Shown here: positions 8,265-39,186 of the stretch, piece by piece
Layout of the letters: every line of letters begins with the position of its first letter
Position numbering within the stretch: position 1 is the stretch's first letter
DNA from: Phycisphaeraceae bacterium
GTDB lineage: Bacteria > Planctomycetota > Phycisphaerae > Phycisphaerales > UBA1924
Direction of reading: 5' to 3'
DNA: 64,000 nucleotides
NCBI GenBank assembly: GCA_019454185.1
Contig: CP075368.1
Span: 2,955,649-3,019,648, forward strand
Notes under the pieces: model-generated
The model's input: only the letters and a program-made list of their open reading frames with translations
Told to the model about the DNA's origin: nothing
Database searches by the model: none
Program-made: the position numbers and the translations under genes

Positions 8265-9056
8265 ATGACCGATCAGCAGCCCCTCCCACCCACACCTCAC
8301 GATGCCACCGCGTCCCCATCGCTGGCGCGCCGCCTGCTCTCGCCCGAGAATGTCGCGGGCGCCATCTCTCTCTGCGCCGCTCTCGGCGCATTCTGGTACA
8401 TCCGCGCAGTGCACCCGTGGATCACTCCCCTCCTCGCCCCGCTCTTGATCGGTGCATACATCGTGCTCCATTTGATCCAGCGCCGCGCAACTCGGCGCCT
8501 CTACCGCGAAGCAGCGTCCACGGGCTTCCGCCGCTGCACAAGCTGCCTCCATGATCTCTCAGGCCTCGCCGACGAAGGCATTTGTCCGGAATGCGGCGCC
8601 GCATACGAACTCGCGTCGCTCGAGCACGCCTGGAAGCTCGCGGCACACGTCCCCACACGCATCGAGGGCGAGGTCTACCGCCCACTCTCAAGATTCCGCA
8701 GCGCCCGCCGCATCCCTTTCACCGCGACCCTGACATCTCTTGTCATTCTCATCGCCGGTGTCGCTTCGCTCATCCTCCGCTCCCGGAACGGTCTCGTCGA
8801 GCATCGCGATCTTGTGATCCTGCTGTTCGCCCTCATCCCGCTCGCGCCCGCGGCTCTCTTGTCTTTCGTGCGGAACGACCTCGCATACCTTCTTCGCCTG
8901 CGATTCCGCGTCTGCCCCCGTTGCCACATGCCGCTCCCGAAGCGAAGCTCCTCGGGTGCGTGCGCCAACTGCCGCCTTCCATGGGACGCCAAGTGGCTTG
9001 AAGAGACCTGGCGCAAGGTGTACGCAAAGCCCGGGCAAGAAGGCGATGCGCCATGA
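8265..9056 (+). CDS. Membrane protein with two TM-pair/zinc-ribbon repeats
   Basis: A 263-residue protein of the same family as the genes at 4096-6161. A TM pair is followed by a ribbon (CTSCLHDLSG...CPECGAAY...LEHAW), a second TM pair and a final ribbon (CPRCHMPL...CANCRLPW...LEETW). It overlaps the next gene by four bases (ATGA), so the two are an operon. It is divergent from the other two family members across the insertion sequence and repeats. The function is unknown. Confidence 0.78.
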   Translation: MTDQQPLPPTPHDATASPSLARRLLSPENVAGAISLCAALGAFWYIRAVHPWITPLLAPLLIGAYIVLHLIQRRATRRLYREAASTGFRRCTSCLHDLSGLADEGICPECGAAYELASLEHAWKLAAHVPTRIEGEVYRPLSRFRSARRIPFTATLTSLVILIAGVASLILRSRNGLVEHRDLVILLFALIPLAPAALLSFVRNDLAYLLRLRFRVCPRCHMPLPKRSSSGACANCRLPWDAKWLEETWRKVYAKPGQEGDAP

Positions 9057-9817
9057 CCGACTCGCAGTCCATCCGCGACGCCTATTGGACCGACACGCTC
9101 TGGAAGCGTCGATCACTCAGCGCACGCGTCACCAAGGTGGGCGCATGGTTCTTTGCACTCCCGCTTGTCCTCTCGTGGATCATCCTTCCAATCGTGCGTG
9201 GCGGCTGGATTGGCGTCGCGGTCTCGCTCCTTCTCATTGCCGCGGTGCTTGGCGTGGGGCATCTGATGGAACGCCCCAAACGCTGTGCCGCCCAGCGACT
9301 GGTCCACGCACGAACTAACCAGTACCGCATCTGCCCCTGCGGCTACGACCTCGCCGGTTCGTCGATCGAAGGGCTCTGCCCCGAATGCGGCAAGCAGTAC
9401 AACCCGCAATCACTGAAGGAGCACTGGGAGGGCGGCACCTACGAACAAGTCATCGCCAAGACCTGGCCACCCATCGGCGAACGCCGCATGTGGCGTGCGC
9501 TCAAGTGGTGGCAACTCGCAACCATCCTCGCCGTGCCAGGCTCATTCTTCCTGATCCCATCGACCCTGCCGCGCGGGGGCACGATCCTAGCGATCGCCTT
9601 TCTCGCCGCCGCCGTCTCTCTCCTCCTCTACATCCTCCGCGGCCACGTCTTCGAGTGGCGAGCCCTCGCGCGTCAGCGCTTCCGTCGCTGTCCCTGCTGC
9701 CTCCGCTCACTCCGTACCGCACCAGACACGGGCGCCTGCCCCAACTGCCGCATCGAGTACACTCCCGATTGGCTCGAACGCACGTGGGCACTCATCTACC
9801 GAAAGCCCGGCGCGTGA
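9053..9817 (+). CDS. Membrane protein with two TM-pair/zinc-ribbon repeats (odd first ribbon)
   Basis: A 254-residue paralogue coupled to the preceding gene. The layout is TM pair, ribbon, TM pair, ribbon (CPCCLRSL...CPNCRIEY...LERTW). The first ribbon reads ICPCGYDLAG...CPECGKQY. Its first knuckle has CxC instead of CxxC, apparently through loss of one residue, so zinc binding there may be altered. The family resemblance is otherwise clear. The substrate or partner is unknown. Confidence 0.78.
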   Translation: MTDSQSIRDAYWTDTLWKRRSLSARVTKVGAWFFALPLVLSWIILPIVRGGWIGVAVSLLLIAAVLGVGHLMERPKRCAAQRLVHARTNQYRICPCGYDLAGSSIEGLCPECGKQYNPQSLKEHWEGGTYEQVIAKTWPPIGERRMWRALKWWQLATILAVPGSFFLIPSTLPRGGTILAIAFLAAAVSLLLYILRGHVFEWRALARQRFRRCPCCLRSLRTAPDTGACPNCRIEYTPDWLERTWALIYRKPGA

Positions 9818-11737: not shown

Positions 11738-12553
11738 CTACACCGGATGCCCATACCCCAGCCGCTTGATCACCACCTGATAATCCGCGTTCTTCGCAAA
11801 CTTCGCGATCAGCGAAGGAACCACCTCGCGACGACCCATCGGGCGGATCGTCCTCCCCTCCAGCCCGCGGCTTGAAACCACATCCCCCGTGATCGTCGCG
11901 TAATCAGCCCACCGCTCCTTGTACGTCGCATCAAACTCCACACCCAATGCCGCGCACATCCGCGCCATCTCCACATCCGGGTTCCTCGTGAAATCCTCGT
12001 ACCGGATCACGACCTCCGGGAGGCACTTCTCGACAAACTCCCGATACCCGCGCAGGTAGTGCTCAAGATTCAGACACCCCTTCATGATCGGAAGCGCCGA
12101 AAGACTCATCCACTGATCGATCGGATGCCGCACCGTCGCGACCCGCACCAGCTCCGCCACCGGCGCAAGATGCTCGACGTTCATCGCGCGCATCGGCGCC
12201 CGCGCCAGAAACGGCGGCCCGTAGAAGTCGATGTGCTCCCACGACCGGATCACGAGCGTCAGCCCCTTCCGCTCCGCACGCTCGCGGATCAGCAGCATCA
12301 GCTCCGCGTACCCCATCGTCGACTCGCCCAGCCGCGCCACATCCTCCGGCGAGAAGAGCCCGAACCACTCGTTCGCCTGCCCGAACGGATTGATGTACCG
12401 CGCCCCCAGCGGATGGATCTCGGACAAGAGACACACACCCCGCATGCACCCGAGACACCGACCGATCATCGTCGATCCCGACCTCGCCAGGTTGTGCCAC
12501 AGCCGCAGCGTCGGACGCGCCCCCGGACCAGATTCATCCCGATGCTCACTCAT
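11738..12553 (-). CDS. Sulfotransferase-family protein
   Basis: A 271-residue protein with features of PAPS-dependent sulfotransferases. The 5'-phosphosulfate-binding loop is LARSGSTMIGRCL near residue 24 and the 3'-phosphate-binding motif is VRHPIDQWMSLSAL. It ends in a helical region. It would move sulfate from PAPS to a sugar, peptide or lipid acceptor that cannot be predicted. The ATG at 12553 is chosen because the domain begins just after it; there is no clear Shine-Dalgarno. It is divergent from the SEFIR-KAP gene and upstream of the aminopeptidase gene. Confidence 0.72.
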   Translation of the reverse strand: MSEHRDESGPGARPTLRLWHNLARSGSTMIGRCLGCMRGVCLLSEIHPLGARYINPFGQANEWFGLFSPEDVARLGESTMGYAELMLLIRERAERKGLTLVIRSWEHIDFYGPPFLARAPMRAMNVEHLAPVAELVRVATVRHPIDQWMSLSALPIMKGCLNLEHYLRGYREFVEKCLPEVVIRYEDFTRNPDVEMARMCAALGVEFDATYKERWADYATITGDVVSSRGLEGRTIRPMGRREVVPSLIAKFAKNADYQVVIKRLGYGHPV

Positions 12554-12706
12554 CACGCCAACGGTAGCAACCGGCACACACGCGGGAATCCACCGCCGAT
12601 CCACTCGCCCGCTAGACCCCCTTCTTCGCACGCCCCGCGCTGGTAGACTCCACAGCGGGATGCCGACACGCGGCTCCCGCCATGCTGCACCGTGGAGGAA
12701 CATCCG

Positions 12707-15700
12707 ATGAATCCTGATTCGCCCGATTCGCGCAAGGCGTCTCGACGCACGAAGCAGACCGAGAGCAGCCAGTCGCGCGAACCAGACGCCGACGCCCCGC
12801 CCGAGCTGAGACAGACCCCCGACGCCGCGCCCAGCCGATCAACGCCCGATGCCCCGCCCGAGGGTGTCAGCCGCCGTCGCATCGTTCCTATCCCGGCAGA
12901 AGGCCCGATCGTCTACGTGAGTTACGCATACGCCGACGCGCCACGCGTCGAACAGTTCGTGAACACGCTCCGCGAGAGCGGCATCCGTGCCCAGTGCGAC
13001 TCACTGGGATTCATCGACGACGAAGGCGGCCCGACGTCGGATCGTTACGACAAAGCGATCAACCGGAGTGACTACTTCATCTCGTTCGTCACCGGCACCT
13101 ATTCAATCCGAGCCCAGTCCGACCAGTTGACCGGTGTTGTCAGAGATCTCGCAATGCTGGCCCGACGCGTACTCGAGAATCCCCACGTTCACCAAACGAT
13201 CCTTCTTGTCTTCGACGGTGAAGACCAGTGGTCGGGTGAGATGCCTGTTGTATTCCTGGGCGCAACACGCAAAGCCGTTTCCTTTCGCTATCGCGAGATG
13301 GATGTCAGCGCAGGCAGGATCGCGGCATTCCTCGCCTCTCGTCCCAAACCCGAGGCGACCGACACATCTGGCTTCCATGTTGCCCGCACCGCGATCGTCG
13401 ACAATCTCCTCGACATCGCGGCATTCGATCCGCGCGACCCACTCAACACAGCCATCACACCAACCTCGCTGATCAATGCTTTCCTGGAGATCGCCGCACT
13501 CGCGCCCGATGCCCGAAACTCCGCAACATGGTTCTGGAACAACCTATCCGCCAAAAGGCAGCGTCAACTCTCGCGAGCGACGAACAGATCTCCCGCAGTC
13601 AGATCCAGAGACAAGAATCGATCATCGGCAGACAGTCCCTACCACCTCGCATCGGCAGACGCCGCGTCCCTGCTCGCCTGGGCCGCGTTGTATTCACAAG
13701 AAGACCAAGATGCTGAATCGATCTGGGGCACACACATGCTCGCCGCCGTGCTCCACGCCGACGCGCCGTGGACAAGCGAAGTCGAAAGCGCACTCATCGA
13801 TCACGATCTTGATCCCAAGACGATCCGAGAAGCGTTCGCGTCCGCACTCCCGAACTGGGGCACACATATCAACCCTGAGAGTCTGATGCTCTGGAAGGGA
13901 GAGTCGCCCACACGCTCACAGCCGAGCCGAGCACGCGGCACACCATCCTCTACCACCTGGTCCACCGCCGAGGGCACCGCACGCCTCAGCGCCGATGATC
14001 CCTCGGCAGCATCCAACTTGGATCCGGAGAACGATCATCTCGGCGTCGACCCGGACGTCGTCGCCTTCGCGCGCGTCGCCGCATCCTGGGACCTCACCCC
14101 GCCCCTCGCCATCGGCCTCTTCGGTGACTGGGGCTCCGGCAAGACCTTCTTCATGAAACGCATGAAGAGCCACATCGAGAAGAACTCGAAGAAGGCCCGC
14201 GACGACACTCGCCCCCAGCGAGACCTCGAATACTGCAAGTACGTCGTGCAGATCGAGTTCAACGCCTGGCACTACTCCGAGGGCGACCTCTGGGCCTGTC
14301 TCGTCGATCACATCTTCACCAACCTCCGCCTTTCCGACAACGAGGCCGACTCCGAAGTGGCCCGCCGCGTCAAGACCATGCTCACCGAGATGCAGTCGCT
14401 TAACAACGATGGCGTTGCAGCAAAGGCGCGGGATCAAGCAATGGATCTCGCGGTCAAGCAAGCAAGTGAAGAACTGAATGCCGCGAAGCAGCATCTTGCC
14501 GACGCGCAGGGTGAATATACGGCTGCGTCCGTCCGCGATATCTGGGAATCTGTCTGGACCAGAGAAGTCATCAAGGGCCAGGTGACTGATCTGCTCAAGG
14601 ATGCCGGAATAGACACGGAGAGCATTGAGACGGCAGAAGATCTCAAGAAAGTTGCCGAGGAAGCACGCTCACTCGCCGCCAAGGCCGGAAATGTGCTGAG
14701 GTATGTTCGCTCACAGTGGAAGAACCCGTACGCTTACATCGCCATCGCTTTGGCGGTCGTACTTCCCGCCCTCATCATCACACTGACCGAGGCGCTCTCA
14801 GACCCGGCCCATGCTGTCGTGGAGATCGTTGTCGCATCACTCTCGGCCTTGTCGGGCGGTGCTGTGATCTGCCGCGCGATACTCCGCAGGATCTCAGAAG
14901 TCGTGGAGCTCGTCGACAAGCCCCGTCGTGTCGCGGAAGAGGCGCGAAGGCTTGAGCTTCAAGCCGCTGAACGGAAGATCAAGGACCTTACCGAGCGTCG
15001 GATCGAGGCAGAACGCCACTCGATAGATATCAAGTTCCAGAAACAAGAGCTCCAGAAACGCATCGACGCCGTCAACGCCACTCGCCTCCTCACCGAGTTC
15101 CTCCAAGACCGTGCCGGCACCGACGACTACCGCAAGCGGCTCGGCACCCTCGCCCTCATTCGCCGCGATTTCGAGCGCCTCTCAAACCTGATGAGTGAGC
15201 AGCGCCGCGAGGCGATGAAGGAGCCAGAAGCAAAGCACGGGACGCCGAGCGCTCCGCAACCCGACGACAAGTACCAGGTCAACCGCATCGTCCTCTACAT
15301 CGACGACCTCGACCGCTGCGCGCCCGCCAAGGTCGTCGAGGTCCTCCAGGCCATCCACCTCCTCCTCGCCTTCCCCCTCTTCGTCGTTGTCGTCGGCGTC
15401 GATGCGCGCTGGGTCCAGCGCAGCATCAAGCATCGCTACGGCGAGCTCCTCCGCAACAAGAAACAAGAGAACGGAGAAGGACCTCAGGACGAGTTCCACA
15501 TCGACCCACGTAACTACCTCGAAAAGATCTTCCAGGTCCCCTTCTGGCTCCCGCCCCTCCATATCAACCACTGCTACAACCTCATGGATGGCATCCTCAA
15601 GGCCGATGTGGCCGCCGCTGCCGACCCCTCTCCAAAGCAACCCGCCTCGCAACCCGACACCCAGTCTGGATCAAACGCGAACGACGCGGCGACCGGCACC

Positions 15701-16429
15701 AACTCCGGCGAACCTGCCCACACCGCGACAAAGGGTTCCGCAGCCGGAGGCCCTTCGCCCGCCACAGATCCCTCCTCCGGCAGCGGCACGCCGATTCAGC
15801 CCCAGGAAACGCCCGCGCAGACAGGCAACGCCCATACGCAGACAAACACGGAGAAAGGTCGCGACAAAGACACCACCCCCGTCGTCGCCGCTCGCTCCGT
15901 TGCCATCACGAGCGGCGAAGCCCAACTGATGAAGCGCTTCGCCCCCATCGTCGGCACCTCGCCCCGCTCCGTGAAACGATTCATCAACTGCTACCGGCTC
16001 TTCAAAGCCGTCGTCCCCGGCGGGCACACCGACAAGCCCTCCGATATCGAAACCAACCTCTCCATGTTCTTCCTCGCCGTCGTCGTCGGCGCGCCCGACC
16101 TCTTCGGCATCATCCATCGGACCATCGCTTCATTCGATAACGCGACGCCCACCATCGACCAAGTCCGAGACAGGATCGGCGAGCAGATCAGGTCCGCCGA
16201 TCCGCGCATAGATGGCCCCGCCATCGCCCAATGGGAACGAGTCAAACCCGTCCTCGAAGTGCTCAAGAAAGAGGAAGCCGAAACGAAACTCCACAACATC
16301 GCATGGATCATCGATCGCGCCCGACGCTTCGGCTACGACACATCCATGAGCCCCACACCACCGACACCCACGCCGGGTCACGAAGACCCCATGGATGCCC
16401 GCGCTCGCGCCGCTCCGCCACCCGCGTGA
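12707..16429 (+). CDS. SEFIR/TIR-like plus KAP-family P-loop NTPase, candidate defence protein
   Basis: A 1240-residue multidomain protein. A charged head (1-65) precedes a SEFIR/TIR-like domain (about 67-205: IVYVSYAYADAPRV, then YDKAINRSDYFISF). A segment resembling the ClpA/B N-terminal fold follows (about 311-385, WGTHMLAAVLHAD). The KAP NTPase has Walker A GDWGSGKT at 473-480 and the family motif IEFNAWHYSEGDLWACL. Two transmembrane helices are inserted at about 674-728, then a coiled coil, and Walker B VLYIDDLDRC at about 863. A low-complexity Pro/Thr/Gly stretch precedes the distal KAP motif SPRSVKRFINCYRLF. The start at 12707 has GGAGGA upstream. SEFIR/TIR fused to NTPases is common in prokaryotic immunity; the defence role is inference. 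Confidence 0.85.
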   Translation: MNPDSPDSRKASRRTKQTESSQSREPDADAPPELRQTPDAAPSRSTPDAPPEGVSRRRIVPIPAEGPIVYVSYAYADAPRVEQFVNTLRESGIRAQCDSLGFIDDEGGPTSDRYDKAINRSDYFISFVTGTYSIRAQSDQLTGVVRDLAMLARRVLENPHVHQTILLVFDGEDQWSGEMPVVFLGATRKAVSFRYREMDVSAGRIAAFLASRPKPEATDTSGFHVARTAIVDNLLDIAAFDPRDPLNTAITPTSLINAFLEIAALAPDARNSATWFWNNLSAKRQRQLSRATNRSPAVRSRDKNRSSADSPYHLASADAASLLAWAALYSQEDQDAESIWGTHMLAAVLHADAPWTSEVESALIDHDLDPKTIREAFASALPNWGTHINPESLMLWKGESPTRSQPSRARGTPSSTTWSTAEGTARLSADDPSAASNLDPENDHLGVDPDVVAFARVAASWDLTPPLAIGLFGDWGSGKTFFMKRMKSHIEKNSKKARDDTRPQRDLEYCKYVVQIEFNAWHYSEGDLWACLVDHIFTNLRLSDNEADSEVARRVKTMLTEMQSLNNDGVAAKARDQAMDLAVKQASEELNAAKQHLADAQGEYTAASVRDIWESVWTREVIKGQVTDLLKDAGIDTESIETAEDLKKVAEEARSLAAKAGNVLRYVRSQWKNPYAYIAIALAVVLPALIITLTEALSDPAHAVVEIVVASLSALSGGAVICRAILRRISEVVELVDKPRRVAEEARRLELQAAERKIKDLTERRIEAERHSIDIKFQKQELQKRIDAVNATRLLTEFLQDRAGTDDYRKRLGTLALIRRDFERLSNLMSEQRREAMKEPEAKHGTPSAPQPDDKYQVNRIVLYIDDLDRCAPAKVVEVLQAIHLLLAFPLFVVVVGVDARWVQRSIKHRYGELLRNKKQENGEGPQDEFHIDPRNYLEKIFQVPFWLPPLHINHCYNLMDGILKADVAAAADPSPKQPASQPDTQSGSNANDAATGTNSGEPAHTATKGSAAGGPSPATDPSSGSGTPIQPQETPAQTGNAHTQTNTEKGRDKDTTPVVAARSVAITSGEAQLMKRFAPIVGTSPRSVKRFINCYRLFKAVVPGGHTDKPSDIETNLSMFFLAVVVGAPDLFGIIHRTIASFDNATPTIDQVRDRIGEQIRSADPRIDGPAIAQWERVKPVLEVLKKEEAETKLHNIAWIIDRARRFGYDTSMSPTPPTPTPGHEDPMDARARAAPPPA

Positions 16430-16439
16430 TCACCATCTC

Positions 16440-16510
16440 GCACCCACCACCCACCACATCACTTCATCTGCCATCTGGCTATTTGCCATTTGCTATCTGC
16501 GATCTGCCTC
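16440..16510. repeat. CTTCATCTGCCATCTGG repeat, partly coding
   Basis: A cluster of ATCTGCCATTTGC-like units between convergent genes, running into the 3' end of the DciA-like gene. The same units recur, in the same orientation, at 29720-29770 and 30030-30140, and in reverse orientation at 33649-33840. Confidence 0.65.
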
Positions 16511-17047
16511 CCCCACCACCTCGATCTTCACCCGCGACACCTGCTGCTTCGTCGCCGCTCGCAACTCCTGCTCACCGCCACCGCGCAGCCACATCGACAA
16601 CTGATACATCGCCGACGCGTCCTCCGTCGCCACCGTCAGCACGCGGCGAGACACACCACGCGCCCAGCAACGCTCCCGTAACTCCCGCGGCACAACCCGC
16701 TCCCACTCCTCATCCAGACCCCCCAACGCCGCCTTCGCACTCTTCAATCGCACCACCTCAGGCGCGATCGCCTCGCCCACCTCACGCCGCGGCTCCGGCC
16801 TCGCACGCAACCGCCTCAGGTTCTCCAACGCCCGCACCGTCGGATCCAACGCAAGCGGACCCGGCATCGGATCCGATTCCCTCTTCGCGGCTCGCGCCGC
16901 GCGCCCCGTCGCCCCGGCCCCCACCGAGCCGCCACCCTTCCCCTTCTGCCCCGACCGACCCAGAGATGAGCCCCCCGAAGACGAACCACCCGGGGCCTCC
17001 CCCGGCTTCTCGCCCGCCTTCTTCTTCGTAACCTTCTTCGCCACCAT
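16493..17047 (-). CDS. DUF721/DciA-like protein
   Basis: A 184-residue protein with a basic, Gly/Ser-rich N-terminal half and a C-terminal DUF721-like domain: LDEEWERVVPREL, then GVSRRVLTVATEDASAMYQLSMW, then a VSRVKIEV end. DciA proteins of this family assist loading of the replicative helicase DnaB at the origin, which would suit the proposed origin-proximal position. The start at 17047 has AAGGGG upstream. The domain match is judged by pattern only, so the DciA role is tentative. Confidence 0.6.
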   Translation of the reverse strand: MVAKKVTKKKAGEKPGEAPGGSSSGGSSLGRSGQKGKGGGSVGAGATGRAARAAKRESDPMPGPLALDPTVRALENLRRLRARPEPRREVGEAIAPEVVRLKSAKAALGGLDEEWERVVPRELRERCWARGVSRRVLTVATEDASAMYQLSMWLRGGGEQELRAATKQQVSRVKIEVVGEADRR

Positions 17048-17192
17048 CTCGCCCCTTGCGGACTTCACACCCCGCCAACCCCACACGCCGCGTCCGATCG
17101 TCTATTCTTCGCGTCCTGCCGCCTCCGCTCTTCCCTCTTCCCCGCTCGTGCCTTCGTGCCTCCGTGCCTTCTCCCTCAGCCCCTTCCCCCCC

Positions 17193-30133: not shown

Positions 30134-31339
30134 CTATTTGCTCTCCCCCAGCCGCAACCACACCCTCACCGCCGTTCCCACACCCGCCCGCGACTCGATC
30201 TCCATCCAACCCCCCGCCCGCTCCACCAGCCGGCGGCTCACTTCCAGCCCCAATCCCACACCCCCCACTCCCCCACACACACCTCGCGCGCCACCACCCA
30301 CCACGCGATACCCGCGCCGACGCAACCCACCCAACACACCCTCCTCAACCCCCCCACCACGATCCATGACCTCAACCACACACCACTGATTATCGGACTT
30401 ACAATCGCCCCCGCGCCCTCCGTCAAAGCCACCCGAACACGCCGACCGATCCGTAACATCCTGCCAACGCAAGAGTTCCGGCATCGACCTATCAATATCC
30501 GAATCTTGCGACATCTCCACTGGAACCCGCCGGGCCCCGCCGCGTATACATATACTATCATAAGCCGTACTAGAGCCATTCCCCGCCGCCGCGGCGTTCG
30601 CCCGCCTCGCATTCAACAACAGGTTCAACAACACCTGAAGCAACTCACTCTCATCCATCGCCCCCTTCAGCCCCGGCTCGATCTCCAGCCGCACGCGCCC
30701 TTCCCACCCACCCGCACCCTCCCCACTCTCACATCCGAAGGCATCATCCGCGGCTCGTCTCGCACACTTAGCGATGTCCGCCAACGGCGTACGCACCACT
30801 GACCCTGTTTCACGTGAAACACCCCCCCGCTCCGCAGAGACCCGCTCACTCGCCGCGGCGTCCGATCCGTCCTGCTTCGCAAGTTCCATGATCGAACCGG
30901 CGATCCCCGTCGCTCGCTTCACGCCCGCCACGACCCGCTCCAGAGCAATCGCCATCCGCTCCGCATCACGCGGCTGCCGCAGCGCGACCTGAGCATGGGC
31001 CAGCAGGGGGGTCAGGATGTTGTTGAACTCGTGGGCCACGAACCCGGAGATCTCCCCGAGCATCGCCAGCCGCTCCACCCGAGGCACCGCACCCCCATTC
31101 CCCCCACCCCCCCCAACACTCCCACCCTCACCACCAACACCCGACTCCCTGGCCAGCTCGCCGAGCCGGGCCTGAATCAGGTCAATCTCACCGATCAGCC
31201 GCTCCCCGGCCCGTTCCGCAGGCCGCTCCCCCTCGCGGCTGTTCCACGTGGAACGCCCCGCAGGCCCGCGCGACGGCGCGGGGCCATCACCCCGCGAATG
31301 CGGGCCGGTGGGCTCGGAGTGGCGGCCATGCGATGCCAT
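30134..31339 (-). CDS. Soluble histidine kinase with AT-rich insert, next to parB
   Basis: A 401-residue protein without transmembrane segments or a recognisable sensor domain. A disordered, Gly/Arg-rich head (1-85) is followed by the phospho-acceptor helix FVAHEFNNILTPLL (His103). The ATPase domain has the N-box LLQVLLNLLLNARRAN (near 240), G1 EVMDRGGGV (near 325) and G2 GVGLGLEVSRRL (near 362). Between N-box and G1, residues about 252-317 are an unusual insert encoded in part by AT-rich DNA. The start at 31339 has AGGAG. No response regulator is adjacent. Two parS sites lie inside the gene. Confidence 0.82.
   Translation of the reverse strand: MASHGRHSEPTGPHSRGDGPAPSRGPAGRSTWNSREGERPAERAGERLIGEIDLIQARLGELARESGVGGEGGSVGGGGGNGGAVPRVERLAMLGEISGFVAHEFNNILTPLLAHAQVALRQPRDAERMAIALERVVAGVKRATGIAGSIMELAKQDGSDAAASERVSAERGGVSRETGSVVRTPLADIAKCARRAADDAFGCESGEGAGGWEGRVRLEIEPGLKGAMDESELLQVLLNLLLNARRANAAAAGNGSSTAYDSICIRGGARRVPVEMSQDSDIDRSMPELLRWQDVTDRSACSGGFDGGRGGDCKSDNQWCVVEVMDRGGGVEEGVLGGLRRRGYRVVGGGARGVCGGVGGVGLGLEVSRRLVERAGGWMEIESRAGVGTAVRVWLRLGESK
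30806..30821. promoter_or_regulatory. parS: parS site 1 (inside the kinase gene)
   Basis: TGTTTCACGTGAAACA, a perfect 16-bp palindrome identical to the bacterial ParB-binding consensus. Confidence 0.93.
31240..31255. promoter_or_regulatory. parS: parS site 2, variant
   Basis: TGTTCCACGTGGAACG, a known type of parS variant (TTCCACGTGGAA core), 100 bp inside the kinase start and at the GC-skew switch. Confidence 0.8.
31260..31320. other. GC-skew switch, probable origin-proximal point
   Basis: To the left, + strand text is C-rich (for example 31081-31260); from about 31320 it becomes G-rich and stays so to the end of the window. The polarity (C-rich to G-rich) is that of a replication origin. 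I could see no perfect DnaA box (TTATCCACA) within 2 kb, so the exact origin is not located. Confidence 0.7.
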
Positions 31340-31510
31340 GTCGCTCCTGGAAAGGGGCGGGAAGGGGGTGCAGGCGATCCGGCGATGGGATCGGCACGAT
31401 CCAGAGGCGACTTTGGCAGAGTCCGGGAACACGCGGCAAGCGGCCCGATCAGGGCGGCTGGGGGCGTGGGGCGGGCAGGGGCGCGTGGGCGTGTGCGGGT
31501 GGGTGGGGGG

Positions 31511-33925: not shown

Positions 33926-35659
33926 ATGGCGACATTGAACTGGATCGGCAAGGAGGCGGTTGTCAATCACCATCGGAAGGTGCCGTATCGGCTGCTGAAG
34001 GCCGATCCGTCGCTCTCGGTGGGTGAGGATGGCGGGCTGGCATCGGGGAATCTGCTTGTGCAGGGGGACAATCTGGAGGCGCTCAAGGCGCTCTTGCCCT
34101 ACTACGGCGGCAAGGTGAAGTGCATCTACATCGATCCGCCGTACAACACGGGGAACGAGGAGTGGGTGTACAACGACAACGTGAACAGCCCGCAGATCAG
34201 GGCGTGGCTTGAAGGCACGCTTGAAAGCCGCAAGGTCGATGCAGACGACCTGAGCCGTCACGACAAGTGGCTGTGCATGATGTATCCGCGGCTAATGCTA
34301 CTACGAGATTTCTTGTGCGAGGATGGCGCGTTATTTGTGTCGATTGACGATAACGAGGTTGCTTTCCTTCGCCTGTTGCTCGACGAGGTGTTGGGCAGTA
34401 GTAATTTTGTTGCCGAAATGATCTGGGAGGGCGCATTCAAGAATGATGCGAGACAGATAGGTGTCAATCACGAGTATGTTCTCGTTTACGCCAAGAACAG
34501 GGCCTTGCTGCCTCGTGAGTGGGCAGTTCCCAAAGAGGGTGTTGAGCCCGTCTTGCGTGAAGTCGATCGCTTGAGAGCGATTCACGGAGAAGACTACGAC
34601 TCGGCTTCGGCGGATCTGGCCGGTTGGTTTCGGGCCATGAAAGCCACGCCTTCTTTCGGACTACGCCGGTTTCGATTCATTGACGCCAGGGGTGCGTACA
34701 AGGAAGATGATCCCACAGCACCTGGCGGACGGCGATTTCAGTTGATCAATCCGCATACGGGCACGGTGATTCCCTTGCGTCCCAATCGTGGCTGGGCGTT
34801 TGATCAGAATGAGTTTGAGGAACGAGTGAAGCAAGGCCGCATTTCGTTTGTCAACGATAAGAGCATTATGCTTCGAACATATCTCCACGAGACCGACAAG
34901 GTGACCCCTCAAAGCGTCTTCTACCAGCCCACACGATCGGCCTCGGAACGTCTCGGACGAATACTTGACAGCGGAGAGTTTGAGTATCCCAAGGACGAGG
35001 TCATTCTCCAGCGATTCATTGATATGGCGACAGACCCCGGCGCGATCGTGATGGATTCCTTTGCTGGATCTGGCACGACTGGTCACGCCGTGCTCGCGAT
35101 GAACAAGGCGGATGGCGGGAACCGAAAGTTCATCTGTATCGAGATGGATGAAACGATCTGCAAGACGATCACGCGTGAGCGGATCACGCGGGTGATCGAG
35201 GGGTATCACCCCGGCGGCGACAGGAAAAAGGAGCGGGTGGAGGGTCTTGGCGGCGGCTTCCGCTATGTGACACTCGGTCCGACGCTGTTTGACGAGCACG
35301 GCCGGTTTCGGTCGGGGGAGGACAAGGTCACGTTCGGGCAGTTGGCAGCGCACATCTTCTTCACGCAGACGGGGGAGCCGCTGCCGAAGCAGGTGAACGG
35401 GAAGCGGTCGCCATTGATCGGAACGTTTCGAGGCACGGCGTACTACCTGCTCTACAACGGGATTCTGGGGGACCGGAGTGTGAGCGGCGGGAACGTCCTG
35501 ACGCGCGAGACGCTGGCGATGTTGCCCAAGCACACGCTGGCAGATGGGTCGCCGGGGCCACGGGTGGTGTTCGGCGAGGCGTGCCGCCTGAGTGATGCGA
35601 CGCTGCGGCGAGAGGGGATTGAGTTCAGGCAGATTCCGTACCAAGTTGAAGTGGGGTAA
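33926..35659 (+). CDS. mod: Type III restriction-modification DNA methyltransferase (Mod)
   Basis: A 577-residue adenine-N6 methyltransferase of the beta class. The catalytic motif DPPYNTGNEEW is near residue 69, before the SAM-binding motif FAGSGTTGHAV near 378, with the target-recognition region between them. The sequence is less GC-rich around 34270-34560, as is common for exchanged recognition domains. It begins with GAGG upstream of ATG 33926. Downstream, dinD follows after 3 bp and res after that. It methylates one strand of a short asymmetric site that cannot be predicted. Confidence 0.93.
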   Translation: MATLNWIGKEAVVNHHRKVPYRLLKADPSLSVGEDGGLASGNLLVQGDNLEALKALLPYYGGKVKCIYIDPPYNTGNEEWVYNDNVNSPQIRAWLEGTLESRKVDADDLSRHDKWLCMMYPRLMLLRDFLCEDGALFVSIDDNEVAFLRLLLDEVLGSSNFVAEMIWEGAFKNDARQIGVNHEYVLVYAKNRALLPREWAVPKEGVEPVLREVDRLRAIHGEDYDSASADLAGWFRAMKATPSFGLRRFRFIDARGAYKEDDPTAPGGRRFQLINPHTGTVIPLRPNRGWAFDQNEFEERVKQGRISFVNDKSIMLRTYLHETDKVTPQSVFYQPTRSASERLGRILDSGEFEYPKDEVILQRFIDMATDPGAIVMDSFAGSGTTGHAVLAMNKADGGNRKFICIEMDETICKTITRERITRVIEGYHPGGDRKKERVEGLGGGFRYVTLGPTLFDEHGRFRSGEDKVTFGQLAAHIFFTQTGEPLPKQVNGKRSPLIGTFRGTAYYLLYNGILGDRSVSGGNVLTRETLAMLPKHTLADGSPGPRVVFGEACRLSDATLRREGIEFRQIPYQVEVG

Positions 35660-35662
35660 GCC

Positions 35663-36532
35663 ATGAAAAGAGAACTGGTTCAGCAGTACTGCGGCGTCTT
35701 TCAAGGGATCACTCGGGAGCGAGAAGGGGTGGAGTACTGGCACGGACGGGAACTACAGGACGTTCTCGGGTACACGAAGTGGGACAACTTTGTCCAGGTC
35801 GTCGAGCGGGCCAAGACCGCTTGCGCGAACAGCGGACAGGATCCGAACGACCATTTTGCCGACGTCGGCACAATGGTCGATCTCGGCTCGGGGGCGAAGC
35901 GGGAGGTCCCAGACTTCGTGCTGACGCGCTATGCGTGCTATCTCATTGCCCAGAATGGAGATCCGCGCAAGACACAGGTGGCCTTTGCACAGACGTACTT
36001 CGCCCTGCAGACTCGAAAGCAGGAGTTGGTTGAACAGCGGCTGGAAGAGGTCGAACGGCTCGCGGCGCGGGAGAAGCTGACGGGCACGGAGAAGGCGTTG
36101 TCCGGCATCATCTATGAGCGCGTCGGGAACGAGAAGAGCTTTGGGATGATCCGTAGCAAGGGCGACGCGGCGCTGTTCGGGGGGCGGACGACGGAGGACA
36201 TGAAGAAGAAGCTGGGGGTGCCAAAGGGGCGCGCGCTGGCGGACTTCTTGCCCACGATCACGATCAAAGCCAAGGACTTCGCGAGCGAGATCACGAACTT
36301 CAATATCAAGGACAAGGACCTGCGCACAGAGGCGGCCATCACGAGTGAGCACGTCCAGAACAACAAGGACGTGCGCAAGTTGCTCGGAGAGCGTGGCATA
36401 CAGCCCGAGGCGTTGCCGCCCGCGGAGGATATCAAGAAGCTCGAACGCCGAGTGGAGAGTGAGAAGCGATCCATCACAAAGGGGGCCAAGCCGCTGCCGC
36501 CGAGTGACGACGCACAAGGATGCGAAGCGTGA
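35663..36532 (+). CDS. dinD: DinD-like DNA-damage-inducible protein, in Type III operon
   Basis: A 289-residue homologue of E. coli DinD. Family segments include EYWHGRELQDVLGYTKWDNF (Bro-N/DNA-binding-like start), HFADVGTMVDLGSGAKREVPDF, LTRYACYLIAQNGDPRK, VAFAQTYFA and the later TEKALSGIIYERVG. E. coli DinD is SOS-induced and inhibits RecA strand exchange in vitro. Here it sits between mod (3-bp gap) and res (13-bp overlap), so it is a built-in part of the operon. I saw no obvious LexA box. It may couple restriction damage to repair. Confidence 0.88.
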   Translation: MKRELVQQYCGVFQGITREREGVEYWHGRELQDVLGYTKWDNFVQVVERAKTACANSGQDPNDHFADVGTMVDLGSGAKREVPDFVLTRYACYLIAQNGDPRKTQVAFAQTYFALQTRKQELVEQRLEEVERLAAREKLTGTEKALSGIIYERVGNEKSFGMIRSKGDAALFGGRTTEDMKKKLGVPKGRALADFLPTITIKAKDFASEITNFNIKDKDLRTEAAITSEHVQNNKDVRKLLGERGIQPEALPPAEDIKKLERRVESEKRSITKGAKPLPPSDDAQGCEA

Positions 36533-39186
36533 CCACCGGGCTGAAGATCTATCAGGAGGAGGCGCTTCAGGAGCTCTCGGAGTTCCTGCGGGCAGCGCAG
36601 GCGACGGACGCGGCGCGTGCGTTCAACGCCAAGCGGAGGCCGAGCGGCGAGTACCAACCCATTCCCGAGTGGAAAGAGAGCGAGGCCTTTCCCTATGTGT
36701 GCGTGCGGATTCCGACGGGGGGCGGGAAGACGTTGCTGGCGGCGCACGCGGTGGGGAGGGTGTGCCATGACTATGTGCTGGCGGAACGGCAGGTGGTGTT
36801 GTGGCTTGCGCCGTCGGATGCGATTGTGCAACAGACGCTTGGGGTGTTGAGGGACAGAGGCAGCCGCGCGAGGAAGGCGCTGGCGGGGGCGTTTGGCGGT
36901 CAGGTGACGATTTTGGATGTGGAGGAGGCGTTGTCGGTGACGCCCGCGGTGCTGAGCGGATCGTGCTCGGTGATCGTGTCAACGGTGCAGTCGTGGCGGG
37001 TGGACAGCACGGACGGGCGGCGCGTGTACCAGCCGGCCAACGGTGACCTGATGGGGCACTTTGACGGTGCGAGCGAGAAGGCGCTTGCGGTCGTGGAGCG
37101 GGGACCGTCGGGCCAGCCGGTGTACTCGCTGGGGAACGTGCTGCGGCTGCGCAAGCCGATCGTGATCATCGATGAGGGGCACAAGTTCCGGACGAAGCGG
37201 ACGTTCGAGACGCTGAAGCGGTTCTCGCCGCGTGCGGTGGTGGAGTTCACGGCAACGCCCCATGTGAAGGGAAAGGACAGGGTTCCGAGCAATGTGGTGG
37301 TGGAGAAGTCGGCGCGGGATCTGAAGATCGAGAACATGATCAAGGCGCCGATTGTGCTGCGGGAGTCCAAGCAGTGGACGGATGCGGTGCGGCTGGCGGT
37401 GGCCAAACGAAAGGAGCTGGCGCGGGCTGCGGAGGAGGAGGGGAGAAAGACGGGGGAGTACATCCGGCCGATCGTGCTGTTCAAGGCGGAGGACAACGTC
37501 ACGGGGAGCAACAACGTGACGGTGGATGTGCTGCGGGAGCACTTGATCAAGGAGGGATACGCGACTGAGGAGGAGGTCGTGATTCATGTGGGTGGACGGA
37601 AGGACCTTCCCGCGAACATCCTCAGTCCGGAGTGTCCCGTGAACTATGTGATCACGGTGGATGCGTTGGGCGAGGGGTGGGACTGTCCGTTCGCGTATGT
37701 GCTGTGCACGATCGCGACGCTTTCGAGCTCGATCGCGGTGGAGCAGATCCTGGGGCGGGTGCTGCGGATGCCGAATGTCACGCTGAAGCATGATGAGTCG
37801 CTGAACAGGGCGTACTGCTTCACTTCGAGCGGGGCGTTCGGGGATGCGGCGACGAATCTGAAGGATGCGCTGGTGGACGCGGGATTCAGCCGCGATGAGG
37901 CGGAGGGGGCGGTCATTGAGGATCGCGGCGCGGAGCGGCGGGATGACGAGCCGGCGCCTCTGTTCCGGAACCGTGAGATCCCGGTGTTCGTTGATGCGGT
38001 GTTGAGTGAGGAGCAGAAGACGGCGATCGCGTCGGCGGTGCCTGGGGATGTGAGATTCGAGCCCGCACCGCTGGCGGGGACAACGACGATCCTGTATCGC
38101 GGCGACATGCTGGATGAGCGGGCGGCGGCGCGGGTGGAGAGTGTGCTGGAGGGGGGGCGGGACAAGATTGCCGCGAAGCGGTTCAAGCGTGCGCTTGCGG
38201 GGGAGGGGACGAGCGCGTCTGAGCTTGGGGAGCTATTCAGGATTCCGGCGTTGGCGATTCAAGACCCGCACGCGGAGGGCGGGCTCTCACTGTTTGAGGC
38301 CCAGCATCGGGAGACGGCGTGGACCTTGGATGAATGTTCGCACGAGTTGGGGCATTTCGACGCTTCGCCGGGGACGGTGCGTGAGTTTGAGGTCGCACCG
38401 GATGAAGACGGGGCGTGGGTGGACCAATACAAGGGCGAGGTTGCGGCGGCGGTGTCATGGATGGATCAGGGCGGACCACGGACACTCGAGGAGTTGTCGG
38501 CGTGGCTCGATCGCTCGATCGAGGATCGAACAGTTACGCAGGATGCGAAGCGGGCGTACATCGATCGAGTGCTGTTGTGGTTGACGCGGGCGCAGAACCT
38601 GTCGGTTGAGCGGCTGTCTCCCGTGCGATGGAGGCTTGCGCGGGCGATCGCGGCGCGCGTGGAGGAGCATCGATCGCAGATTGAGCGGCACGTGTTTCAG
38701 TCGCTACTCGGGCGGCTGGTTGTTTCGGTGACTCCACCTCACCCGTCGCTCATCTTTGCACTCGACTCCGCGCGATCGGACTATCCGGGAGACTTGCGAG
38801 CGACGACGGACCGGAAGTCATTTCCGCGGCACTTCTTCCCGTTTATCGGTGACATGAACAACGATGAGCGGTTGTGTGCGCAGTTGATCGATGCGCATCC
38901 CAATACGAAGCACTGGATCAGGAATATCGAGAGACATCCGAAGTCGTTCTGGATGCCGGGGCTGCGGCAGAAGTTCTATCCGGATTTCATCGCCGTTCTG
39001 CATGATGGCAGGTACGCGGCAATTGAGTACAAGGGGAAGCGCGGCGAGCAGATTCCTGATGAGCAGGCGAAGCGGGAGATGGGGATGCTTTGGGCTGCGC
39101 GAAGCGAGGGAAAGTGTGTGTTCGTGTGGGTAACGAAGGAGGACATGGAAGCGTCGGTATCGGCGGGACTCGCGAGCCCGTCTTGA
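36520..39186 (+). CDS. res: Type III restriction enzyme, helicase-nuclease subunit (Res)
   Basis: An 888-residue superfamily-2 helicase with a C-terminal nuclease. Walker A is RIPTGGGKTLLAA (near 68), Walker B is VIIDEGHKFR (DEGH), motif III is FTATPH and motif VI is QILGRVLRMP. The C-terminal PD-(D/E)xK nuclease reads YPDFIAVL-x-AAIEYKGKR near residue 830-850. It needs Mod and two head-to-head sites for cleavage, as known for Type III enzymes. The start at 36520 overlaps dinD by 13 bp. The operon appears complete. Confidence 0.93.
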   Translation: MRSVTTGLKIYQEEALQELSEFLRAAQATDAARAFNAKRRPSGEYQPIPEWKESEAFPYVCVRIPTGGGKTLLAAHAVGRVCHDYVLAERQVVLWLAPSDAIVQQTLGVLRDRGSRARKALAGAFGGQVTILDVEEALSVTPAVLSGSCSVIVSTVQSWRVDSTDGRRVYQPANGDLMGHFDGASEKALAVVERGPSGQPVYSLGNVLRLRKPIVIIDEGHKFRTKRTFETLKRFSPRAVVEFTATPHVKGKDRVPSNVVVEKSARDLKIENMIKAPIVLRESKQWTDAVRLAVAKRKELARAAEEEGRKTGEYIRPIVLFKAEDNVTGSNNVTVDVLREHLIKEGYATEEEVVIHVGGRKDLPANILSPECPVNYVITVDALGEGWDCPFAYVLCTIATLSSSIAVEQILGRVLRMPNVTLKHDESLNRAYCFTSSGAFGDAATNLKDALVDAGFSRDEAEGAVIEDRGAERRDDEPAPLFRNREIPVFVDAVLSEEQKTAIASAVPGDVRFEPAPLAGTTTILYRGDMLDERAAARVESVLEGGRDKIAAKRFKRALAGEGTSASELGELFRIPALAIQDPHAEGGLSLFEAQHRETAWTLDECSHELGHFDASPGTVREFEVAPDEDGAWVDQYKGEVAAAVSWMDQGGPRTLEELSAWLDRSIEDRTVTQDAKRAYIDRVLLWLTRAQNLSVERLSPVRWRLARAIAARVEEHRSQIERHVFQSLLGRLVVSVTPPHPSLIFALDSARSDYPGDLRATTDRKSFPRHFFPFIGDMNNDERLCAQLIDAHPNTKHWIRNIERHPKSFWMPGLRQKFYPDFIAVLHDGRYAAIEYKGKRGEQIPDEQAKREMGMLWAARSEGKCVFVWVTKEDMEASVSAGLASPS

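Follow-up and report, generated by a model that had tools for sequence, protein, structure and literature searches.

A single gene in the window (the whole 64,000-nucleotide stretch of DNA analyzed here) joins a TIR-like domain, a Clp_N-like helical module and a membrane-inserted KAP NTPase in one chain. What might such a protein do, and how did its gene come to lie where it does? Its sequence features suggest, at about an even chance, a receptor that acts in biological conflict, most likely against phages, and is encoded by a lone gene of horizontal origin; it would resemble NLR/STAND proteins with a KAP domain in place of the STAND NTPase. The features of the locus are as follows.

12522..16489, no strand: segment absent from the same-genus genome G001 (blastn of window flanks against L067)
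12694..12699, + strand: Shine–Dalgarno sequence GGAGGA, 7 nt ahead of ATG 12707 (sequence)
12707..16429, + strand: TIR-ClpN-KAP(2TM) protein, 1240 aa (ORF call, Pfam domains)
12911..13288, + strand: TIR_2 domain, residues 69–194, with a SEFIR-like pattern around GVVRDLAML (Pfam TIR_2, E 2.3e-6)
13145..13147, + strand: Asp147, inferred place of the active-site Glu of catalytic TIRs (motif position; model helix 138–156; compare the Glu of L034)
13379..13906, + strand: Clp_N-like tandem helical module, residues ~225–400 (family alignment and HMM, L040 score, model)
14123..14146, + strand: Walker A GDWGSGKT, residues 473–480 (hydropathy scan, family alignment)
14732..14872, + strand: transmembrane hairpin, residues 676–694 and 704–722 (hydropathy, model helices)
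15287..15319, + strand: Walker B IVLYIDDLDRC, residues 861–871 (family alignment)
15512..15550, + strand: family signature NYLEKIFQVPFWL, residues 936–948 (invariant E, K, F and Q across the aligned members)
15656..15877, + strand: Pro/Ser/Gly/Thr-rich low-confidence linker, residues ~984–1057 (pLDDT below 50)
15959..16003, + strand: C-terminal KAP signature SPRSVKRFINCYRLF, residues 1085–1099 (PR invariant in the alignment)

Domain structure of the protein

The gene is a single open frame on the plus strand, with an ATG at 12707 and a stop codon that ends at 16429, exactly where the preliminary description had placed it. The Shine–Dalgarno sequence supports ATG 12707 as the start. The three-part architecture proposed there is also confirmed: one chain runs from a TIR_2 domain through a Clp_N-like module to a complete KAP NTPase, a combination far beyond chance. 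The genome, a single contig of 3.8 Mb, contains one copy of the gene.

The KAP_NTPase match (Pfam PF07693) has an E-value of 8e-25 and scores 88.1 bits against a cut-off of 20. The NTPase motifs are complete, and they are invariant or nearly so among 47–56 aligned family members. The two hairpin helices lie between Walker A and Walker B, inside a long coiled-coil insert, in agreement with the earlier assignment of a KAP NTPase with a two-helix membrane insert. The PR pair of SPRSVKRFINCYRLF is a possible sensor/arginine element. Pfam matches up to an E-value of 1 include no STAND family (NACHT, NB-ARC or nSTAND), and the NTPase is of the KAP type. A Foldseek search with the core returns chains of the RdrA heptamer (probability up to 0.99) and ClpX, at E-values above 0.001. 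With the KAP profile as query, PDB sequences gave only chance coiled-coil matches.

The Clp_N-like module, located upstream of Walker A, is common to the window protein and about 20 other family members. The module HMM, whose seed contains the window protein itself, scores that protein at E 3e-34, and the model reaches a pLDDT of 67–80 in the second repeat. The earlier proposal of a ClpN-like segment is upheld at the family level, as the module aligns across the family and passes the Clp_N cut-off in L040 (21.4 versus 20.7), but Clp_N is sub-threshold in the window protein itself. Three other members (L029, L035 and L041) are sub-threshold near the cut-off. Several Clp_N-like half-repeats stand in apparent tandem before the KAP core of L061 and L062, both from rhizobial plasmids, and of L058 and L077. 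By their sequence, these tandem half-repeats suggest a sensor array.

The TIR_2 domain scores 28.5 bits in the protein search, against a Pfam cut-off of 28, and 32.9 bits in a six-frame search of the genome, where the product of 12707–16429 is the only match. In a low-confidence structure model, strands alternate with helices in this region. The domain had been described as SEFIR/TIR-like, and its TIR half stands. The Pfam SEFIR model has no match in the 1240-residue protein up to E = 1, and the PADLOC bSEFIR match is weak (E 1.4e-3). Thus, SEFIR membership is rejected, and 'TIR-like' is the better supported term. The TIR segment as a lone query has no matches in plasmids or the PDB. The N-terminal structure model (pLDDT 51) is too poor for fold assignment; ClpV N-domains appear in its Foldseek list only at E above 1 and are not counted as evidence.

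In the motif GVVRDLAML, Asp147 occupies the place where the active-site glutamate would stand, and the predicted helix formed by residues 138–156 agrees with this position. The residue was mapped by motif and secondary structure rather than from a solved homolog, because the MAFFT alignment of the TIR rows misplaced the TIR domain of the window protein. The glutamate on which an enzymatic function would depend thus appears to be replaced by aspartate. Among other members with a TIR domain, L034 retains the glutamate in an alignment to the TIR protein of PDB 3h16, L063 carries it at the equivalent place of the motif, and L002 probably retains it. K, R, S or Q is found at this position in L021, L024, L027, L030 and L047, leaving five of nine TIR members without an acidic residue. 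NADase activity is therefore uncertain for the window protein and unlikely for these five members.

A TIR score just above the cut-off, together with D147, would also fit a decayed fusion: a vestigial TIR domain on a protein that serves as a generic membrane ATPase or as a scaffold of chaperone-like type. This is very improbable, as the frame is intact over 1240 codons without a stop and all NTPase motifs are kept.

Insertion site and genomic neighbors

The flanking DNA of the gene is homologous to a sequence of G001 (L067), with 90–91% identity on either side by blastn. The homology stops at 12521 and restarts at 16490. In G001, a sulfotransferase gene and dciA adjoin, separated by 98 unrelated bp. 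A segment of ~3.97 kb (about 4.0 kb) was thus either gained in the window genome or lost in G001. The TIR-ClpN-KAP gene is its sole gene, as expected from the earlier description of a single gene without accessory genes, and its neighbors point away from it or toward it: the sulfotransferase gene upstream is divergent, with its conserved part starting at about 12553, and dciA downstream (16493–17086) is convergent. The GC content of the gene is 0.618, versus 0.646 for the window. No ortholog is present in 20 relatives from genus to order, three of which have distant KAP proteins only. The empty site, the lack of an ortholog in these relatives and the lower GC content together favor horizontal gain of the gene as a solitary gene.

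The sulfotransferase ORF (11738–12703, minus strand) runs into the insertion. Its first 50 residues are probably untranslated, because the conserved start (MSEHRDESG...) lies at about 12553.

Other parts of the window also contain features of interest. A likely type III restriction-modification system spans 33926–39186 on the plus strand and consists of an N6/N4 DNA methylase gene (33926–35659), a Bro-N domain gene (35663–36532) and a ResIII helicase/restriction subunit gene (36520–39186). The position of the Bro-N gene, flanked by mod and res, seems unusual, and the GC content falls to 0.55 around 34.0–35.0 kb within this putative region. The GC skew flips sharply from negative to positive at ~31000–31500, and its cumulative curve bottoms out near 31.3 kb, a shape also seen at replication origins; the distance from dciA to this switch is about 14 kb. 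At 8265–9817 (plus strand), two apparently related tandem genes each encode zinc-ribbon-like motifs and hydrophobic segments.

A simple ORF call shows the solitary arrangement to be usual in the family: for 31 of 50 chromosomal members, it places no neighbor close by on the same strand. The immediate chromosomal neighbors are mostly metabolic genes. The preliminary description had looked to context statistics near known defense genes, and these give no enrichment beside chromosomal members: PADLOC finds 10 models in 92 adjacent genes versus 10 in 94 distal genes, defined as five or more positions from the family member. In Myxococcus (L003, L007 and L008), the KAP gene is immediately preceded by a gene for a 914-residue lactonase-propeller/di-haem peroxidase-like protein, which is apparently tandem-duplicated in L007 and L008.

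Three plasmid copies adjoin defense-type genes, examples that are anecdotal and carry no statistic. The relative on a plasmid of Rhizobium sp. CC1099 (L062) overlaps with a SIR2 gene and a nucleoside deoxyribosyltransferase gene. The Sinorhizobium RAC02 plasmid relative has DarT, macro-domain and SIR2 genes nearby, and the Agrobacterium T29 plasmid relative has VapBC nearby. At L062:8753-14522, overlaps of a few bases link the KAP, SIR2 and nucleoside 2-deoxyribosyltransferase genes into a candidate three-gene KAP operon.

The metabolic neighbors and the absence of defense enrichment beside chromosomal copies, along with the occurrence of the family in Myxococcota, filamentous actinomycetes and Planctomycetota, could indicate a function other than anti-phage defense, namely an NTPase that complex bacteria would use in regulation or programmed cell death, in connection with stress, development or the envelope. 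We consider this function unlikely. The patchy distribution, the empty site, plasmid carriage beside conflict genes and the exchange of immune-type front ends fit a conflict system better, and the family extends to Pseudomonas and Rhizobium, which are simple, unicellular hosts.

A conserved core with exchanged N termini

When 84,980 species genomes were probed with the Walker A region, 59 relatives emerged. They belong to Acidobacteriota, Myxococcota, Actinomycetota, Pseudomonadota, Bacteroidota, Planctomycetota and other phyla. Five further relatives were added from plasmids and one viral contig. Scans of genome contigs and viral contigs with the whole protein returned no relatives, whereas the Walker A region did find them. 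A core-profile search of viral contigs gave two matches, the clear member L077 and the distant L078. L077 is an IMG/VR contig (28 kb) classed as viral, and its family member has 974 residues. In phage records, the whole protein had no match and the core gave one weak match.

The KAP core with its transmembrane segments is near-invariant across the family, and the hairpin occupies the same place between Walker A and Walker B. The region before Walker A ranges from about 54 to 1077 residues and is shorter than 105 residues in L020, L025, L039 and L057. Its domains include TIR_2 (L002, the L021 group, L034 and L063), caspase C14 (L018 and L036), WD40 (L004, L018 and L051), EVE (L013 and L022), EAD1 (L046), SLOG LDcluster4 (L034) and TPR (L058). 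EVE-KAP fusions receive no mention in a published survey of EVE domains.

When the cores are compared by maximum likelihood, the window protein groups with L002 (Acidobacteriota, with TIR) and L006 (Nitrosovibrio, lacking TIR), at a strong support of 100/88. Only 9 of the 61 rows of this tree have the TIR domain, which is thus not essential to the family. The TIR label requires three changes on the tree and is found in separate places, and phyla are mixed. Together with the swapped N termini, this distribution is what domain shuffling and horizontal transfer would produce.

Known systems and a proposed mechanism

Several known systems share the KAP core or the general layout of the window protein. 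The closest by profile is QatA of QatABCD, which gives the best PADLOC (E 3e-20) and NCBIfam (E 5e-27) matches. The score of 94.9 bits is far below the cut-off of 600 and no qatBCD genes are adjacent, the neighbors being the sulfotransferase gene and dciA, so membership in QatABCD is rejected. RdrA of RADAR has a KAP/AAA-like core and forms rings, and is among the Foldseek matches of the core mentioned above. RADAR membership is rejected as well, with an RdrA score of 9.3 bits versus a cut-off of 600 and no RdrB neighbor seen. PifA, responsible for phage exclusion by the F plasmid, shares the KAP core (PADLOC E 1.4e-7) and differs in its N terminus. Just two short stretches of its 720-position profile match, and membership is rejected.

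Tmn is a single-gene anti-phage KAP NTPase with two transmembrane helices and resembles the window protein in these respects. It is set apart by its description, which in the accessible part of the source reports no TIR or Clp_N N terminus (PMC11846954), and the PADLOC search of the 1240-residue protein gave no Tmn-named match. In EAD-type conflict systems, KAP displaces STAND (PMC8195603; also PMC10907252). These systems likewise combine an N-terminal effector or adaptor with KAP in place of STAND, and family member L046 carries EAD1. The window protein differs from them in bearing the TIR domain directly, together with a Clp_N module, and in having no partner effector gene alongside. TIR-STAND (NLR-like) anti-phage proteins, for example those of P4 satellites (PMC9122126), also unite a TIR effector, an NTPase and a repeat module in one chain encoded by a solo gene. 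In the window protein, by comparison, the NTPase is KAP, the variable modules of the family are all N-terminal, and a membrane hairpin lies within the NTPase.

The design had been called unstudied. Two-TM anti-phage KAP proteins (Tmn, PMC11846954) and KAP-for-STAND exchange in EAD-type systems (PMC8195603) are known, as are QatA, PifA and RdrA; the TIR–ClpN–KAP arrangement with a membrane hairpin appears to be a new variation on them. In the open-access literature searched, a single paper treats KAP NTPases, TIR domains and phages together (PMC10907252), and its relevant passages do not describe this fusion; an earlier mention of TIR-KAP or ClpN-KAP elsewhere is possible.

For the conflict receptor, the following mechanism can be envisaged. 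The hairpin would anchor the KAP domain at the inner membrane. A trigger would be sensed or relayed by the Clp_N-type region, perhaps together with the hairpin. ATP binding may then drive ring-like oligomerization, by analogy with the KAP proteins RdrA and QatA, the latter a hepta- or octamer (PMC13279940). Oligomerization would cluster the N-terminal TIR domains, which could start a response by NAD+ chemistry or by assembly of a signaling scaffold, leading to abortive infection. The preliminary description had the NTPase releasing its TIR-like effector, which is baseless for a covalently fused domain; clustering is the more natural alternative.

The conflict-receptor reading draws on the complete NTPase motifs and hairpin across the family, on the exchange of TIR, caspase, EAD1, WD40, EVE, SLOG-type, TPR and Clp_N front ends over one core, and on a core tree that mixes phyla and places the TIR label separately. 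It also draws on the G001 empty site with the missing ortholog and lower GC content, on the plasmid relatives beside SIR2 and nucleoside deoxyribosyltransferase, DarT and macro domain, and VapBC, and on the RdrA/ClpX matches and the literature on Tmn, EAD-KAP and QatA. Points against it are the probable Asp for Glu, the chromosomal neighbors without PADLOC enrichment and the presence of TIR in 9 of 61 rows. The Foldseek E-values above 0.001 and the N-terminal pLDDT of 51 also count against it. The earlier notion of a candidate immune effector is thus supported by patchy horizontal spread, the empty site, swapped front ends and the plasmid neighbors, and not by the chromosomal neighborhood.

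The output of the defense may also lie in the membrane. A possible, less probable scheme is that the KAP-TM core is the killer that permeabilizes or depolarizes the membrane, an action proposed for PifA- or Tmn-like proteins, and that the N terminus, including TIR, is an input or homotypic adaptor without enzyme activity. The hairpin and KAP core are universal, and N termini seem dispensable in the four members with the shortest ones, although these could be mis-called starts. The catalytic glutamate appears to be replaced in the window protein and is missing from five further members with a TIR domain, and several N termini (WD40 and EVE) serve for binding and bring no enzyme. Tmn is itself a two-TM anti-phage KAP protein (PMC11846954). 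Caspase-type N termini (L018 and L036) and glutamate-keeping TIRs (L034, L063 and probably L002) argue for some enzymatic outputs, and pore formation is conjecture.

The conflict-receptor reading, extended to the whole family, leads to a more tentative proposal: a class of membrane-anchored NLR-like immune receptors, in which one KAP-TM engine carries many shuffled front ends and spreads horizontally as single genes, with TIR serving as an oligomerization scaffold rather than an NADase where the glutamate is lost. If true, KAP NTPases would give bacteria a membrane-bound counterpart to STAND NTPases, a second chassis for NLR-style immunity with the same exchangeable outputs and sensors. The family is a testable set, as one core occurs with a catalytic TIR, a non-catalytic TIR, a caspase or no enzyme, and it lends itself to distinguishing an output through TIR from one through the membrane.
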